DNA of 64,000 nt from assembly GCF_031458235.1 (NCBI RefSeq), contig NZ_JAVDYB010000001.1, positions 7,899,001 through 7,963,000 on the forward strand. The letters are read 5' to 3'. A program made the translations under genes and the position numbers. The notes beneath the pieces were generated by a model. It did no database searches. It was not told the origin of the DNA and saw only the letters and a program-made list of their open reading frames with translations. Positions 32,255 through 41,595 of this stretch are shown here, one piece after another. The DNA comes from Catenuloplanes atrovinosus (GTDB lineage: Bacteria; Actinomycetota; Actinomycetes; Mycobacteriales; Micromonosporaceae). Every line of letters starts with the position of its first letter. The stretch's first letter is position 1.

Positions 32255-33229
32255 TCAGGAGCCCGGCGTCAGCAGCCGGTCGCGGGTCAGCACGCCGAGC
32301 TCGCGCCCGTCCGAGACGATCCGCACCCGGTCGGTGCCGGCGCCGAGCATCCGGGCCAGCACGTCGTAGAGCGTGGTGTCGAGATCCACGTCCAGCAGCC
32401 CGTTCGCCGCGCCGGCCGGCTCCAGCATGTCCCGGCTGACCCGGGTCACGGACAGCCGCCGGATCGCCCGGTCCGTACCCACGAACTCGCGGACGAAGTC
32501 CGAGGCCGGCGTGCCGAGCAACTCGGCCGGCGCCGCGAACTGCTCCAGGTGACCGCCCTGGGAGAGCACCGCGATCCGGTCCCCGAGCCGAACCGCCTCG
32601 TCCAGGTCGTGCGTCACCAGCACGATCGTCTTGCGCACCTCGGCCTGCAGGCGCAGGAACTCCTCCTGCAGCCGGGCCCGCACGATCGGGTCGACCGCGG
32701 AGAACGGCTCGTCCATCAGCAGCACCACCGGGTCGGCCGCCAGCGCGCGGGCCACGCCGACGCGCTGCCGCTGACCGCCGGAGAGCTCCTTCGGGTAGCG
32801 GCCGCCGTGGACGGACGGGTCCAGGCCGACCAGCTCCAGCAGCTCGTCCACGCGCGCCCGGACGCGCGCCTTCGGCCAGCCGAGCAGCGTGGGAACGGTG
32901 CCGACGTTGGTCCGGATGGTCTGGTGCGGGAAGAGGCCGACGTTCTGGATCACGTAGCCGATCCGGCGCCGCAGGTGCACCGGGTCGAGCCGGGTGACGT
33001 CCTCGCCGTCGATCAGCAGCCGCCCGCCGGTCGGCTCGATCAGCCGGTTGATCATCCGTAGTACGGTCGACTTGCCGCACCCCGAGGGCCCGATCAGCAC
33101 CGCCAGCTCGCCGGCCCGCACCTCCAGGCTCAGCTCGCGCACCGCCTTCGTACCGTCGTCGAACGTCTTGCTGACCTGGTCCAGCGTGATGGTGGCGGCC
33201 TTCTGTCCGCCGCCCACGGTAGGTTCCAC
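32255..33229 (-). CDS. ABC importer ATPase, quaternary amine (OpuCA/ProV-like) type
   Basis: This 324-residue ATPase would power uptake of glycine betaine or a similar osmolyte. It has Walker A GPSGCGKST, signature LSGGQRQRV, Walker B VVLLMDEPFSAVD and H-loop THDLDEA. A single CBS-like domain follows at the C-terminus (DVDLDTTLYDVLARML, then GVLTRDRLL), which in this family senses ionic strength. The GTG at 33229 has GAGAGGA upstream, within the start of the divergent permease gene; a GTG at 33217 is an alternative. Its start lies two bases from the permease start on the other strand, unlike the usual co-directional opu operon. Confidence 0.9.
   Translation of the reverse strand: MEPTVGGGQKAATITLDQVSKTFDDGTKAVRELSLEVRAGELAVLIGPSGCGKSTVLRMINRLIEPTGGRLLIDGEDVTRLDPVHLRRRIGYVIQNVGLFPHQTIRTNVGTVPTLLGWPKARVRARVDELLELVGLDPSVHGGRYPKELSGGQRQRVGVARALAADPVVLLMDEPFSAVDPIVRARLQEEFLRLQAEVRKTIVLVTHDLDEAVRLGDRIAVLSQGGHLEQFAAPAELLGTPASDFVREFVGTDRAIRRLSVTRVSRDMLEPAGAANGLLDVDLDTTLYDVLARMLGAGTDRVRIVSDGRELGVLTRDRLLTPGS
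33220..33225 (+). promoter_or_regulatory. -10 hexamer for leaderless permease gene
   Basis: TAGGTT ends six bases before the ATG at 33232 and lies within the first codons of the divergent ATPase gene. Confidence 0.5.
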
Positions 33230-33231
33230 GT

Positions 33232-33939
33232 ATGTCCTCTCGGCAATGGGTGTTATGGAGCGTGCAGTACGCCGATGCACCCGGCAACCCGTGGTTCTCC
33301 TGGCAGTACCTGCGGGACAACTCCGACACGGTGCTGTCCGCGCTCGTCGAGCACGTGACCCTGACCACCCAGGCGGTGGCGCTCGCGGCGGCGGTCGGGC
33401 TCCCGCTGGCGGTGCTCGCCTACTGGTTCCGGCCGCTCACCGGCCCGATTCTCGCACTCTCCGGCGTGCTCTACACCATCCCGTCGCTGGCCCTGCTCGC
33501 GTTCGTCGCCCCGCTGGTCGGCACCACGCGCCCGGCCTCGGTGTTGATCGCCCTGGTCCTCTACGCGCTGCTGCTCATCGTGCGCAACGCGCTGGCGGGA
33601 CTGAACCAGCTTCCGGCCGAGGTCCTGGACGCGGCGCGGGGCATGGGGTACGGACGGGTGGCCCGGCTTTTCCGGGTGGACCTTCCGCTGGCCGTCCCGG
33701 CGATCCTCACCGGCCTGCGCCTGGCCACCGTCTCCACCGTGGCGCTGGTCACGGTCGGCTCGCTGATCGGCTACGGCGGGCTCGGCGATCTGATCCTGGG
33801 CGGTTTCCGGAACAACTTCTACAAGGCGGAGATCCTCACCGGCACCGTGCTCTGCGTGGCGCTGGGCCTGCTGCTGGACCTGCTGCTGGCCGGCGCCGGG
33901 CGACTGCTCACGCCGTGGACGAGAGGGGCCCGCGGATGA
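33232..33939 (+). CDS. ABC importer permease, OpuCB-like
   Basis: The 235-residue inner-membrane subunit has about five helices and the conserved permease EAA-type loop containing LDAARGMGYGRVARLFRVDL, which docks on the ATPase. It matches the first permease of betaine/choline OpuC-type importers. Codon 8 is TTA (33253-33255), very rare in such GC-rich genomes and in Streptomyces a marker of bldA control. The next permease overlaps by ATGA. The second permease, a binding lipoprotein and the divergent ATPase complete the importer. Confidence 0.9.
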   Translation: MSSRQWVLWSVQYADAPGNPWFSWQYLRDNSDTVLSALVEHVTLTTQAVALAAAVGLPLAVLAYWFRPLTGPILALSGVLYTIPSLALLAFVAPLVGTTRPASVLIALVLYALLLIVRNALAGLNQLPAEVLDAARGMGYGRVARLFRVDLPLAVPAILTGLRLATVSTVALVTVGSLIGYGGLGDLILGGFRNNFYKAEILTGTVLCVALGLLLDLLLAGAGRLLTPWTRGARG

Positions 33940-34643
33940 ACGCGATCGACCAGGCGATCGTCTGGCTCAACGACCCGCTCAACTGGACGAACCCCGGCGG
34001 CATCCTGGACCGGCTGGGCGAGCACCTGTGGATCTCGTTCGCCGCGGTCGCGATCGGCTGCCTGGTCGCCTGGCCGATCGGCCTCTGGCTGGGGCACACC
34101 GGCCGGGGCGGCGGCGCGGTGGTGTTGATCTCCAACGTCACGCTGGCCATCCCCACGGTCGCGCTGCTGACCATCCTGCCGCTGACGCCGCTCGGCTTCG
34201 GCCGCCCGCCGGTGATCCTGGCGCTGGCCGTGTTCGCGGTGCCGCCGCTGCTGGCCAACGCCTACACCGGCGTGCGGGAGATCGACCCGGAGGCGCGGGA
34301 CGCGGCGCGCGGCATGGGCCTGTCCGGCCGGCAGTTGCTCACCCGGGTGGAGCTGGCGCTGGCCGTGCCGTACCTGGCGACCGGCTTCCGGACCGCGTCC
34401 GTGCAGGTGGTGGCCACGGCCGCGCTGGCGTCCTTCGTGAACGGCGGCGGCCTCGGGCAGATCATCAGCGCCGGCTTCGGGCTGGGCATGTCGGTCGGCG
34501 GCGGGCAGATCCTGGCCGGCGCGCTGCTGGTGGCACTGCTCGCGCTCGGCATCGAGGGGTTGCTGGCGCTGCTGGAGCGCGCGCTCACGCCGCGCCCGCT
34601 GCGCCGCCCGCGCCGGGTCCGCCGCCGCCCGGCGACGGCCTGA
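33936..34643 (+). CDS. ABC importer permease, OpuCD-like
   Basis: This 235-residue protein is the second permease of the importer, with five to six helices and the docking loop EARDAARGMGLSGRQLLTRVEL. The gene starts in the ATGA overlap with the upstream permease, so stoichiometric translation is likely. It ends in a short basic tail (RRPRRVRRR). A hairpin follows the stop, and the binding-protein gene begins 255 bp further on with its own signals. Confidence 0.92.
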   Translation: MNAIDQAIVWLNDPLNWTNPGGILDRLGEHLWISFAAVAIGCLVAWPIGLWLGHTGRGGGAVVLISNVTLAIPTVALLTILPLTPLGFGRPPVILALAVFAVPPLLANAYTGVREIDPEARDAARGMGLSGRQLLTRVELALAVPYLATGFRTASVQVVATAALASFVNGGGLGQIISAGFGLGMSVGGGQILAGALLVALLALGIEGLLALLERALTPRPLRRPRRVRRRPATA

Positions 34644-34898: not shown

Positions 34899-35900
34899 TT
34901 GAGATACAAGCGGCTGGCCGTGAGCGCGCTCGGCGCGCTGGCGGCGGCGACGATCCTGAGCGCGTGCGGGGAGGCCGGCTCGTCCGGCACCGAGGCGCCG
35001 GCCAGCGCGGCGGCGGGCGCCGGCTGCGCGGGCGTGCCGGGCACCTCGCTGGTGGTGCTCACCGACGACAAGGCGCTGCAGAACACGGACAACGTGCTCC
35101 CCGCGATCAACAAGGCGGCGGCGAAGCCCGAGCTGGTCGCGGCGCTGGACAAGGTCTCCGAGGCGCTGGACACCCCCAAGCTGATCGCGCTGAACAAGGC
35201 GGTCGACGTGGACCGCAAGACGCCCAAGGTGGCGGCGGACGAGTTCGCGGCGGGCGCGGGCCTGACCACCGGGATCGCCAAGGGCCCGGGCGGCGACATC
35301 AAGATCGGTGCGGCGAACTTCAGCGAGAACCAGACGCTCGCCGAGCTGTACAGCATCGCGCTCACCGCGGCCGGCTACAAGGTCACGGTGCAGCAGATCG
35401 GCAACCGTGAGCTGTACGAGCCGGCGCTGGAGAAGGGCGAGATCCAGGTCGTCCCGGAGTACGCGGCGACGCTCGCCGACTTCCTGAACGGCAAGGTCAA
35501 CGGCAAGGACGCGGCGCCGGTCTCGTCGCCGGACCTGACCGCCACCACGACCGCGCTCGCCGGGCTGGGCGACAAGGTCGGCCTGGCGTTCGGCAAGCCG
35601 TCCGCCGCCCAGGACCAGAACGCGTTCGCGGTGACCAAGGAGTTCGCCGAGAAGTACGAGCTGACCACGCTCAGCGACCTGGCCGCGAAGTGCTCGGGCG
35701 CGGCCACCTCGCTCGGCGGCCCGCCGGAGTGCCCGCAGCGGCCGAAGTGCCAGGCCGGGCTGGTCACCACGTACGGCTTCCAGGCCGGTCAGTTCGTCTC
35801 GCTCGACGCGGGCGGCGCCCAGACGAAGAACGCGCTGAAGACCGGCACGGTCTCCGTCGGCCTGGTCTTCTCCTCCGACGGCGAACTCGCCACAAATTAG
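34899..35900 (+). CDS. Quaternary-amine binding lipoprotein, apparently circularly permuted
   Basis: This 333-residue lipoprotein is the solute receptor of the adjacent ABC importer. The TTG at 34899 has GGAAGG eight bases upstream and starts a signal peptide with lipobox LSAC (Cys23). Residues ~50-125 (SLVVLTDDKALQNTDNVLPA to VAADEF) match what is normally the C-terminal end of OpuC/OsmF/ProX-type receptors. Residues ~134-333 (IKIGAANFSENQTLAEL, YEPALEKGEIQVVPEY, LGGPPEC) match the normal N-terminal and middle parts. The protein ends at VSVGLVFSSDGELATN, the point where the N-terminal segment would ordinarily continue. The segment order is therefore permuted with the fold elements complete. 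Confidence 0.9.
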   Translation: MRYKRLAVSALGALAAATILSACGEAGSSGTEAPASAAAGAGCAGVPGTSLVVLTDDKALQNTDNVLPAINKAAAKPELVAALDKVSEALDTPKLIALNKAVDVDRKTPKVAADEFAAGAGLTTGIAKGPGGDIKIGAANFSENQTLAELYSIALTAAGYKVTVQQIGNRELYEPALEKGEIQVVPEYAATLADFLNGKVNGKDAAPVSSPDLTATTTALAGLGDKVGLAFGKPSAAQDQNAFAVTKEFAEKYELTTLSDLAAKCSGAATSLGGPPECPQRPKCQAGLVTTYGFQAGQFVSLDAGGAQTKNALKTGTVSVGLVFSSDGELATN

Positions 35901-35919: not shown

Positions 35920-35965
35920 GATCCGGCGCCATCGCCCCTGCTCAGGGCATCGATGGCGCCGGATC
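35920..35965 (+). terminator. Strong hairpin terminator after the binding lipoprotein
   Basis: A perfect 15-bp stem (35920-35934 with 35951-35965) with a loop that can itself pair (CCC with GGG) starts 20 bases after the stop codon. Confidence 0.8.
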
Positions 35966-36004
35966 GCGCTATCCGAGCCCGTTTCGCTATCCGGCGACTC
36001 TGGG

Positions 36005-36010
36005 TAGGCT
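36005..36010 (+). promoter_or_regulatory. -10 hexamer for the gene at 36019
   Basis: TAGGCT ends eight bases before the ATG at 36019, without a ribosome binding site. Confidence 0.5.
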
Positions 36011-36018
36011 TCACGACC

Positions 36019-38052
36019 ATGCCAGCCCCTGATCCGGTTGCCGAGCGGGCGAACCCACGCCTGGCACAGGGCCTGCTCTGGGCCGGTGTCGGGCTCGCGC
36101 CGCTCGCGGCGTTGTTCCTGCTCTTCGGCGGCGGCACCGGCACGCTCCGGTTCGCCGTCTTCCTCGTGCTCGTGTCGATCGCGCTCATCGGCGCCTCGGT
36201 CACCCTCCGTGGTGGATCAGGTGCGTCGCGAGTCGATCTCGAAGAGGCGATGGTCGAGGAGATGGTGCGGCTGCGCGCCGAGGTGCGCAGCGAGATAGCC
36301 AATGCCACCCGCGTCGGCCAGGCCGCGTCCCAGCAGCGCCTCCAGGCGCTCAGCGCCGCGGTCGACGGCCTCCAAGCCCAGTTCGCCGCGGTGCAGAACG
36401 CGGTGCCCGATCCGGCGCCGGTCGCGATCGCCGCGCCGCCCGGGCGGGCCGCGATCGCCGCGGCCGCGGTCGTGCCGCCGGTCGTCGAGCAGGAGGGCCG
36501 CGTCGCGACCGGCTACGCGCGCGCGTCCGTCGCACCGCCGGCCCCGGCCGAGCGCGACGAGCCCACCGCGTACGGGTCGGCGCAGGACGATACGTACGGC
36601 GGTGACCAGGGTGGATACACCCCGCGCCGGGCGCAGGCGGACGACGGCGGCTACACCGGCCAGCGGTACGCGGAGGCGGACGACGGCAACGCCTACGGCT
36701 ACGGTGCCCGCTCCGGCGACGATCGCTACGGCAGCGACTACGGCCGCGGCGACCACGGCCGCGGCGACGACTACGAGCGGTCCGGCTACGACCGCGACGA
36801 CCGGGACCGGGACGAGCGCCGTGCCCGTCGCGATCGCGACGACGAGTACGACCAGTACGACCGCGGCCGCGGCTACGACCAGGAAGAGCGTCGTGAGGAC
36901 ACCGGGCGCGCCCGGGCCAGCGCCTCCGCGAGCGTGAGCCGCGCCGGTGGCCGCGCGCAGGCCGGCCGCGGCAGCGTCCCCGGCCAGCTGGCCGGCGGCA
37001 TCGTCCGGCACACCGAGACCGTGCACGTCACCACCCGGTCGACCATCGTGGACCCGCGCGGCGACAGCGGCTCCCTCTACGGCGCCGGCGAGTACAACGG
37101 CTCCCGCGGCGACGACTACGGCCGGGACACCGCGGACCGCGGCCGCCGCGCCCGCGGCAGCTTCGACCCGGGCGCCCGCGACTTCGACCCCGGCTACCGC
37201 GACTTCCGCGGCGGCGGCCACGGCACCGACGAGGGCGGCTACCGCGGCGACGACCGGGGTGGGTACGACAGCGACGACCGGGGTGGGTACGGCAACGACG
37301 ACCGCGGCGGCTACGGCTACGGCGGTTACGGCAACGACGATCGGGCGGAGCGCGAGGAGAGCACCGAGGACGTCGGCCGCCGCGCCGCCCGGCCCGGCCG
37401 GCCCAGTTGGGGCGAGCAGGCCAACCCGTACGACCGGCCCGCGCTCGAGTCCAGCTCGTCCGAGCCCAGCTGGTCCCAGATCCGGCAGGCCGGCGACCGC
37501 TACGCCGCGGTCCGGCAGGACGACCGCGGCCAGGAGCTGCGCGTGGGCGAGCGCCGCGCCAGCGTCCGCAGCGACGACAGCGGCACCGAGATGCGCGTCG
37601 AGGACCGGTGGGAGTCGGTCCGCCGCGAGGACCGCGCGGCCAACCCGTACGACCGGGATCGCCGTGGCCCGCAGACCGGGCAGATGCGCCGCGTGATCGA
37701 TCAGGGCCCGTCCACCGGGCAGATCCGCCGGGTCGGCGAGGACCCGCAGCCGTGGCGCACCCAGCAGCGGGGCGGCCGGCGCGAGGAGCCGTGGCGGGTC
37801 GGCCCGGACGACGGCCTGCCCGGCCCGGAGGAGCAGCCGCGCGGCCGGTACGACGACGGGCGGTACGACGGCGGCCGATACGACGACGGCCGGCGCGCCG
37901 ACCGCGGCGGGTACGACTACCGGCAGGACGACCGCGGCCGGTCACCGCAGCGCTTCGACTCCAGCAGCCTCTACGGCGAGGCCAGCCAGTTCACCGGCGA
38001 GCAACGCGCGATCTCCGCCATCGAGTGGGACCGCGACGACTACCGGCGTTGA
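36019..38052 (+). CDS. Membrane protein with ~500-residue disordered Tyr/Asp/Arg-rich tail
   Basis: The 677-residue product has two N-terminal transmembrane helices (about residues 17-38 and 43-62), then a helical or coiled-coil stretch (EEAMVEEMVRLRAEVRSEIA). The rest is low-complexity sequence rich in Tyr, Gly, Asp and Arg, including DDRGGYGNDDRGGYGYGGYG-type repeats near 37250-37350. Towards the C-terminus a motif of the form VRxDDxGxExRVxxRxxSVR is repeated (residues ~500-540). Such tails can self-associate or be phosphorylated. I know no function. It is convergent with nuoD, six bases away. Confidence 0.75.
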   Translation: MPAPDPVAERANPRLAQGLLWAGVGLAPLAALFLLFGGGTGTLRFAVFLVLVSIALIGASVTLRGGSGASRVDLEEAMVEEMVRLRAEVRSEIANATRVGQAASQQRLQALSAAVDGLQAQFAAVQNAVPDPAPVAIAAPPGRAAIAAAAVVPPVVEQEGRVATGYARASVAPPAPAERDEPTAYGSAQDDTYGGDQGGYTPRRAQADDGGYTGQRYAEADDGNAYGYGARSGDDRYGSDYGRGDHGRGDDYERSGYDRDDRDRDERRARRDRDDEYDQYDRGRGYDQEERREDTGRARASASASVSRAGGRAQAGRGSVPGQLAGGIVRHTETVHVTTRSTIVDPRGDSGSLYGAGEYNGSRGDDYGRDTADRGRRARGSFDPGARDFDPGYRDFRGGGHGTDEGGYRGDDRGGYDSDDRGGYGNDDRGGYGYGGYGNDDRAEREESTEDVGRRAARPGRPSWGEQANPYDRPALESSSSEPSWSQIRQAGDRYAAVRQDDRGQELRVGERRASVRSDDSGTEMRVEDRWESVRREDRAANPYDRDRRGPQTGQMRRVIDQGPSTGQIRRVGEDPQPWRTQQRGGRREEPWRVGPDDGLPGPEEQPRGRYDDGRYDGGRYDDGRRADRGGYDYRQDDRGRSPQRFDSSSLYGEASQFTGEQRAISAIEWDRDDYRR

Positions 38053-40263: not shown

Positions 40264-41595
40264 ATGCGAGCTCCTTCCCTGAGGTTCATCGGCGCGGCTC
40301 TCGCCGTACCCACGCTGCTCCTGACGACGACCGCGAATCCGGCGGCGGCCCACGGGCCGCGGCCCGTCGAGAAGGTCGTGCCGGCCGTGGAGACGCCCGC
40401 GCTCTACGACGACGAGGCCGGCGGCGACGCCGACGCGGACGACCCGGCGATCTGGGTGCACCCGGCCGACCGCGCCCGGTTCCGCAAGGGCGCCACCGCA
40501 CAGAGCCGCGGGAGCGCCACCGCACTGAGCCGCGTGATCGCTACCGCACTGAGCCGCGTGATCGCTACCGCGAAGAACGGCGGCCTGCGCGTCTACGACC
40601 TGCGCGGACGTGAGCTGCAGTCGATCGCCACGCCGCCCGCGCCGGGCCCGGACGACGAGGCCGGCCGGTTCAACAACGTGGACATCGTCGAGGACTTCCG
40701 GCTCGGCGGCCGGACCGTGGACCTCGCCGCGGTCAGCGACCGGGGCCGTGACCAGCTCCGCTTCTACGCGATCGACGAGCGGACCGGCCTGCTCACGGAC
40801 GTGACCGCGGCCGACGTGCCGTTCGCCTTCAACGCCACCCAGGCCGAGGTGAACGAGCAGCGCACCGCCTACGGCCTGGACGCCGTCGACGGCGGATATC
40901 TGCTGGTCAGCCGCCGCAGCACACCCGAGGTCGGCACGTTCCGGCTCGTCGAGCGGAACGGCCGGGTCAGCTACCGCCCGGTCGACCGCCTGACGCTCCC
41001 GGCCGAGTTCACGCTGCCCGACGGCACGCACTGGGCGCCCTGCACCGACCCGGGCGACGGCCCGCAGGTCGAGGGCGTGGTGGTCGACGCGGAGAACCGC
41101 ACGGCCTACCTAGCGCAGGAGGACGTGGCGCTCTGGCGGGTGCCGATCCGCGACGGCCGCTTCACGGGCCGGCCGGCCATGGTGGAGCGGGTGCGCGAGT
41201 TTGGCATCCCGGCCACCTACGACGAGGCGACCGAGGAGTGCGTGGTCGACTACGGCGCGGACCCGGGCTTCGGCGGCCGGATCGCCGCGGACGTGGAGGG
41301 CCTGACCATCCTGCCGACCGGCCGGACCGGCGGCACGCTGCTGGTCTCCAGCCAGGGCGACGACACGTTCTACACGTACGACCGGCGCTCGAACCGGCCG
41401 ATCGGGCACTTCGCCGTGGTCGACGGCCCGCGCGTGGACGGCTCGCAGGAGTGCGACGGCGCGGCCGTGACGCCCACGCCGCTGCCCGGCTTCCCCGGCG
41501 GGCTGCTGGTGGTGCACGACGGTCAGAACACGCCGGGCGACGGCGACCGGCCGAACACGAACTTCAAGTTCCTCGATGCGGGATTCCTGTACTGA
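40264..41595 (+). CDS. Secreted beta-propeller phytase
   Basis: This 443-residue exported enzyme would release phosphate from phytate. A signal peptide (residues ~1-30, ending near NPAAA) precedes a beta-propeller with the BPP pattern DADADDPAIWVHP, KNGGLRVYDLRG, RFNNVDIVEDF, GPQVEGVVVDAENRTAYLAQED and DVEGLTI. Calcium-binding acids expected for the family appear present. Between the DDPAIWVHP and KNGGL blocks there is an in-frame insertion of an eight-residue tandem repeat (ATALSRVI units) not usual in the family. It has its own candidate leaderless promoter. Confidence 0.87.
   Translation: MRAPSLRFIGAALAVPTLLLTTTANPAAAHGPRPVEKVVPAVETPALYDDEAGGDADADDPAIWVHPADRARFRKGATAQSRGSATALSRVIATALSRVIATAKNGGLRVYDLRGRELQSIATPPAPGPDDEAGRFNNVDIVEDFRLGGRTVDLAAVSDRGRDQLRFYAIDERTGLLTDVTAADVPFAFNATQAEVNEQRTAYGLDAVDGGYLLVSRRSTPEVGTFRLVERNGRVSYRPVDRLTLPAEFTLPDGTHWAPCTDPGDGPQVEGVVVDAENRTAYLAQEDVALWRVPIRDGRFTGRPAMVERVREFGIPATYDEATEECVVDYGADPGFGGRIAADVEGLTILPTGRTGGTLLVSSQGDDTFYTYDRRSNRPIGHFAVVDGPRVDGSQECDGAAVTPTPLPGFPGGLLVVHDGQNTPGDGDRPNTNFKFLDAGFLY
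40492..40575 (+). repeat. 24-bp tandem repeat inside the phytase gene
   Basis: Three full units (40492-40515, 40516-40539, 40540-40563) and half of a fourth encode an eight-residue repeat close to ATALSRVI. Units two and three differ at a single base, so the expansion is recent. The last copy merges with the conserved strand VIATAKNGGL. Confidence 0.85.

Follow-up and report, generated by a model that had tools for sequence, protein, structure and literature searches.

A circularly permuted OsmF/OpuBC/EgtUC-type receptor in Catenuloplanes atrovinosus and further rotations of its family within one phylum

How can the receptor of an ABC importer begin with the part of the chain that ends its relatives, and what has such a rotation left as it was? 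The question is raised by a gene of Catenuloplanes atrovinosus (contig NZ_JAVDYB010000001.1) that lies in the 64,000-nucleotide stretch of DNA analyzed here, which we call the window. A sequence-only reading had described the gene at 34899-35900 (+) as encoding a lipoprotein in which the C-terminal segment of OpuC/OsmF/ProX-type receptors comes first, right after the lipid anchor; its coordinates, frame, and lipobox were correct as first noted. Residue numbers throughout are those of the window protein (333 amino acids [aa]). The features are as follows.

32255..33280, minus strand: ABC transporter ATPase, ProV-like, divergent (profile match; beside the receptor in relatives)
33232..33939, plus strand: ABC permease A, BPD_transp_1 (Pfam; adjoins the receptor in relatives)
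33954..34643, plus strand: ABC permease B, BPD_transp_1 (Pfam; adjoins the receptor in relatives)
34899..35900, plus strand: permuted receptor gene, whole, 333 aa, TTG start, TAG stop (full-length collinear relatives)
34899..34967, plus strand: signal peptide with lipobox ILSAC, Cys23 expected to be lipidated (read from the sequence; kept in relatives)
34968..35039, plus strand: low-complexity linker with Cys43, codon 35025-35027 (Cys in 68 of 69 distinct members of the window's form, P1)
35040..35273, plus strand: tail segment, residues 48-125, which ends the chain in normal-order receptors and here stands close to the N-terminus
35289..35606, plus strand: lobe A segment, residues 131-236, the usual receptor start
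35607..35891, plus strand: lobe B segment, residues 237-331, now the C-terminus
35691-35693, plus strand: Cys265 codon, in the lobe B segment
35730-35732 and 35748-35750, plus strand: the older Cys278/Cys284 pair, in the lobe B segment

By eye, GGAAG lies 9 bases 5′ of the TTG start, and two relatives (L006 and L059) have ATG at this place. From the lipobox, lipidation of the receptor is expected at Cys23. The longest ATPase reading frame overlaps that of permease A, and the true start of one of the two probably lies further in. Directly behind the receptor gene, at 35953-38052, is an open reading frame of 699 aa that is rich in Asp, Arg, Gly, and Tyr, has repeats in its second half, and is without a Pfam match at E values up to 0.001. 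Elsewhere in the window, a 24-bp repeat (3.4 copies, 40490-40571) lies within a phytase-family gene (PF02333, 40189-41595).

Segment order of the window receptor

The only Pfam family to match the window protein at E values up to 0.001 was OpuAC (PF04069; E = 6.9e-39; 134.4 bits against a cut-off of 21.2), which places the protein outside the Type I/cluster B sugar receptors. The match falls into two pieces whose order is swapped, the best piece pairing residues 133-331 with profile positions 2-184. The same break is seen on the contig, where 7934295-7934906 matches profile positions 2-189 (E = 3.5e-29) and the upstream stretch 7934046-7934249 matches positions 187-255 (E = 1.3e-8). The score against the OsmF equivalog NF049931 was 61.4 bits, below its curated cut-off of 400. 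Elsewhere in its own genome, three more PF04069 matches (L002, L004, and L005) are distant and have no match to our segment profiles.

We compared the protein by BLASTP with a receptor of normal order (L100). Residues 132-332 correspond to L100 residues 7-207 (54% identity; E = 8e-67), and residues 45-122 correspond to L100 residues 204-281 (51% identity; E = 2e-20). Together the two blocks account for all of L100 residues 7-281; they overlap by four residues where they meet, and no part is lost. Protein structures of the family gave the same picture: a profile of the window's order (form P1) matched 27 of 27 chains in two stretches each among the matches listed, whereas a normal-order profile, which found the same family in 27 chains, matched 22 of them as a single stretch over nearly their whole length. 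The rest were four sensors with inserted GFP, matched in two stretches, and 3o66, matched in one partial stretch.

Because of these two-block matches, we read the front segment as the missing C-terminus and not as a duplicate or an unrelated domain. The chain thus runs tail, lobe A, lobe B instead of lobe A, lobe B, tail, with the cut near residue 125, where the sequence-only reading had placed it. These comparisons confirm that the window protein is a circularly permuted OsmF/OpuBC/EgtUC-type receptor with its last ∼78 residues moved to the front.

Distribution of the rotated forms and the operon around them

In named genomes, the P1 order was found at full length in 22 of 23 loci, the remaining one (L028) being cut by a contig end; the scan used the window protein as the query, which favors close kin. 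Within Micromonosporaceae, the loci come from Catenuloplanes, Micromonospora, Plantactinospora, Phytohabitans, Asanoa, Winogradskya, and others, and outside this family they come from Cellulomonas, Actinotalea, Luteimicrobium, and metagenome-assembled actinobacteria. A full-length collinear P1 match was present in 96 of 121 genomes of the family (one of them, G418, with an internal stop), a count taken from the match table, most loci not being read individually. Of the others, one (G457) had part of a match at a contig end, 9 had weaker matches only, and 15 had none at the threshold used. P1 was also found in 17 of 394 genomes of the class, across six family codes, and in at least 2 of 396 genomes of a phylum sample, 151 of which had any match. 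In a tree of 80 proteins (described below), the Cellulomonas and Actinotalea copies (L015, L017, and L019) nest inside Micromonosporaceae (100/98), which suggests that P1 reached these genera by gene transfer. The sequence-only reading was right about the receptor class but not in calling the order unusual, as P1 is the usual form in Micromonosporaceae and the phylum holds further rotations.

Reading of the loci with odd match patterns (an internal stop, or a second piece upstream) showed from their segment order that the family has been permuted at two further points in the phylum. These loci had been candidates for tandem normal-order genes, a reading that we rejected. The second rotation (P2) occurs in at least 12 genomes of the phylum sample, two of them cut by contig ends. 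Its chain runs from about residue 268 round to about residue 263, so that the cut falls in lobe B between SDLA and the strand before GGPPECP. The third rotation (P3), in at least two genomes of the sample, has its cut near residue 297, likewise in lobe B. P3 was present in 2 of 247 genomes of its class, and two other classes had P2 in 6 of 24 and in 4 of 27 genomes. Two genomes have P2 beside a normal-order copy (G032, on C109 and C116, and G058, on C75 and C7). An outlying P2 member (L071, in G304) is confirmed by a second genome of the same genus (G1063; locus L210). The lipobox pattern was recognized in both P3 proteins and in 8 of the 12 from P2. Among the remaining four P2 rows, two are truncated and two have a near miss (GAAC and GTAC). 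L074 was counted as P2 after its sequence was read, and L082 was dropped as cut by a contig end. Another group suspected of rotation, L075 to L081 (eight genes, L079 having two), proved to be of normal order throughout.

The operon of the window contains a ProV-like ATPase and ProW-like permeases, and two permease genes followed by the receptor, with the divergent ATPase ahead, were found in 22 of 22 named loci (L006 to L027). In the window, folP/folB and nuoD flank the transporter block, and a methyltransferase gene lies farther out. Normal-order receptor genes occupy the same operon, and folP, folB, and/or nuoD were near the receptor in 7 of 11 normal-order regions (L182, L183, and L187 to L191). 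Two of these, L182 and L191, have the flanking neighbors on both sides, with folP turned round in L191. The tracked neighbors were absent from the other four (L184, L185, L186, and L196), of which L186 and L196 are short contigs. Among P1 members, L025 has folP, folB, nuoD, and the methyltransferase gene all around its receptor, nuoD is absent from the stretch read at L015, L017, L019, and L026, and the ATPase/permease block is inverted relative to the receptor and nuoD at L194 (G846:C42; the same as the long-branched P1 member L098). As normal-order genes share the operon and often the neighbors, the permutation to P1 probably occurred in place.

One normal-order locus (L079; G236:C3:54200-57700) carries a tandem pair of receptor genes downstream of permease B; neither encodes the cysteines at 278 and 284. 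From such an arrangement, a rotation would follow once the two copies fused and their outer parts were lost. Since no remnant of a lost receptor copy was seen (one tail match per locus), the duplication route draws on the general model and on the L079 tandem.

Fold, ligand pocket, and added cysteines

An AlphaFold2 (AF2) model of the window protein had a mean pLDDT of 84.3, with values below 50 for residues 1 to 32 and a value of 92 for the block 41 to 50. By superposition, residues 130 to 333 lie on chains of OpuBC, OpuCC, Archaeoglobus fulgidus ProX (ProX-Af), OsmF/YehZ, and EgtU (root mean square deviation [rmsd], 2 to 4), the rows for OpuBC-type chains covering residues 124 to 333 and not the placement of the tail. 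Bacillus subtilis OpuAC aligns over a different range, residues 37 to 263 (rmsd, 4.3). Absence from the structure listing was not used to exclude any family. In the model, the P1 and P2 cuts lie at the passage from a helix to the strand that follows it; the P3 cut is where strand 296-301 begins.

We then mapped the ligand residues of ProX-Af, as listed in PMC10087775, onto the window protein. By alignment, Y63 corresponds to Y188, D109 to D239, Y111 to N241, R149 to R281, and Y214 to T63; Y190 corresponds to F324 on our reading through the EgtUC alignment. Only one of the four tyrosines of the aromatic cage is thus kept. The quaternary-amine binding named in the sequence-only reading is accordingly uncertain, with Y63 retained (as Y188) and Y111, Y190, and Y214 replaced (by N241, F324, and T63). 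Across all orders, positions Y188, D239, N241, and R281 are largely conserved (Y188 is F in P3), and because of this the alignment indicates that the permutation did not remake the pocket.

The P1 form differs in its cysteines. Cys43 in the linker and Cys265 in lobe B are both present in 73 of 74 P1 rows (68 of 69 distinct sequences), L025 being the sole member without either, and they occur in none of 68 other proteins (54 of normal order, 12 P2, and 2 P3). The alignment row of L098 is shifted by one column and holds both extra cysteines, so the column counts read 73 and 72 of 74. The Cys278/Cys284 pair is found in all orders (48 of 54 normal, 74 of 74 P1 rows, 11 of 12 P2, the twelfth being truncated there, and 2 of 2 P3). 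We propose a putative disulfide that would join Cys43 to Cys265 and pin the N-terminus to lobe B. In the AF2 model of L025, pLDDT rises above 50 about 8 residues before the tail strand, compared with about 18 in the window protein; this fits the disulfide weakly but could simply reflect the alignment. Because L025, which lacks both extra cysteines, branches early, their gain may have come after the permutation. In the tree, L098, whose placement is unsure, branches earlier than L025 and has both cysteines; if it is truly the first branch, an early gain of the pair was followed by its loss in L025.

As the best explanation, to which we give a probability of about 0.84, we propose that the gene supplies a ProVWX/OpuB-type ABC importer with its lipid-anchored solute receptor, rotated by an in-frame circular permutation that moved its last ∼78 residues to the front. 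The receptor gene would have been duplicated in tandem within the operon, and the tail of the first copy would then have been fused to the start of the second, with loss of the outer parts. The product would fold as a two-lobed flytrap of the usual kind in which one hinge strand is interrupted, with the Cys43-Cys265 disulfide pinning its new N-terminus to lobe B, and would still hand its solute to two permeases and an ATPase.

Whether the new N-terminus brought any gain is a separate matter. Fused tandem duplicates that still fold might lose their ends at any outer loop by neutral drift, an account to which we give slightly less than even odds. The repeated cuts would then express no more than a tolerant fold and common duplication, and a linker cysteine would pair with any surface close by. 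This account agrees with the modeled position of the cuts at passages from helix to strand (P3 at a strand start), which would be permissive places, with the existence of tandem receptor genes (L079), and with the mostly unchanged pocket. It agrees also with three normal-order receptors of 54 (L052, L104, and L111) that have a linker cysteine and a cysteine in the first helix of lobe A, a pair that could pin the linker to lobe A; in view of these, we softened an earlier reading of the P1 pair as the repair of a cut hinge. Against drift, the presence of P1 in 96 of 121 family genomes and the near fixation of its cysteine pair suggest selection on the new N-terminus.

A further possibility is a repeated re-siting of the lipid anchor from lobe A to lobe B, on which three or four lineages would have converged. 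The N-termini of P2 and P3 begin inside lobe B, and that of P1, at the hinge, would be tied by the disulfide to the loop 264-268; this loop is where the P2 N-terminus begins, and Cys265 lies at the P2 cut. We consider this convergence rather unlikely as a whole, the more so since normal-order members also have linker cysteine pairs. If it is true, the lobe that is held near the membrane would matter for the meeting of receptor and permease.

Number of rotations and comparison with known systems

For the tree, sequences were rotated to one order. Loci L001, L003, L083, L084, and L028 were set aside as duplicate or partial, and L061, L082, and L105 were not classed. Removal of nine near-duplicates reduced 101 rows to 92; the cysteine count left out the same duplicates, together with L150 and L082. 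The tree of 80 proteins left out 52 of 74 P1 rows and a further 10 rows (L081, L079 [two], L077, L148, L149, L151, L033, L110, and L074). The normal order is taken as the old one because it is that of the solved family members.

P1 formed one clade (85/63; 88% of bootstrap trees) among the normal-order receptors of its class. Its single origin has moderate support in this alignment because of the long-branched L098. P3 formed one clade (100/98), and P2 appeared in three places. The approximately unbiased (AU) test rejected a single clade of all permuted forms (P = 1.4e-72; log likelihood worse by 239), of P2 plus P3 (P = 0.00011), and of P2 alone (P = 0.00075). A clade of P2 without L071, a grouping defined post hoc from the tree, gave a P value of 0.079. 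Since the first two groupings are rejected, the sequences imply at least three permutation events. There were probably four, with one cut used twice. In tail and lobe A, L071 most resembles the normal-order receptors found in its own class (best, L042, L049, and L080), and its lobe B part is about equally close to both groups, the start of lobe B being uninformative; it is possible that its lobe B piece was acquired by transfer.

One might still imagine a single ancient permuted receptor, from which the other cuts and the normal orders arose by later re-permutation, recombination, or transfer. The P2 cut does turn up, with start motifs that resemble one another, in widely separated branches, and both the P value of 0.079 for P2 without L071 and the ambiguous lobe B of L071 would suit this history. 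We nevertheless judge it highly improbable, given the rejection of all permuted forms and of P2 plus P3 as clades and the affinity of the L071 tail and lobe A to normal-order receptors of its class. A sequencing or assembly rearrangement, or an unrelated domain fused before a truncated receptor, is rejected, as the same order recurs across many independent genomes and the front segment shares 51% identity with the genuine C-terminus of a normal-order receptor.

One family in one phylum offers its original order and three rotations, together with normal-order versions in the same operon and sometimes in the same place. This opens to direct test which loops tolerate new termini, whether a shifted anchor alters the working of a flytrap receptor, and whether a disulfide can compensate for a cut hinge. 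There is also a practical warning, in that a profile built on one order reports a permuted protein as two pieces.

The domain dislocation of periplasmic binding proteins attributed to Fukami-Kobayashi (1999) reportedly concerns changed strand connectivity in the superfamily, as is seen in the window protein too, but is said to be an ancient divergence of receptor types, whereas the window protein is rotated within a single family. Compared with OpuBC, OpuCC, OsmF, ProX-Af, and EgtUC (PF04069), the window order is rotated at the crossing from lobe B to lobe A, and the protein has one of the four cage tyrosines and two extra cysteines. ProX, OpuBC, and OpuCC are called subcluster F-III (PMC9732360). 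A permutation between ProX and OpuAC, adduced as a precedent in the sequence-only reading, was not confirmed: the accessible part of a paper on Lactococcus lactis OpuAC mentions none and calls Escherichia coli ProX similar in fold to OpuAC (PMC2861598). The different range over which B. subtilis OpuAC aligns with the model may bear on this precedent. No paper on a permuted receptor of the OpuBC/OsmF/ProX-Af/EgtUC family was among the literature matches listed, in a search that covered few subscription journals.

A clear parallel is the Treponema pallidum protein TpMglB-2 (Tp0684), an ABC-importer receptor and lipoprotein with a natural permutation; its authors suggest, in the portion available, that anchoring may favor permutation (PMC4990184). 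Both are permuted lipoprotein receptors of ABC importers, the lipidation of the window protein being predicted from its lipobox. By the same partial account, TpMglB-2 belongs to another receptor class (Type I/cluster B, for glucose), carries the first three strands of its N lobe at the C-terminus, and represents one permuted topology, not three. A permuted lipoprotein receptor was thus already known in another class; the surprising part here is that rotations within one family are repeated and differently cut, with one cut probably used twice.
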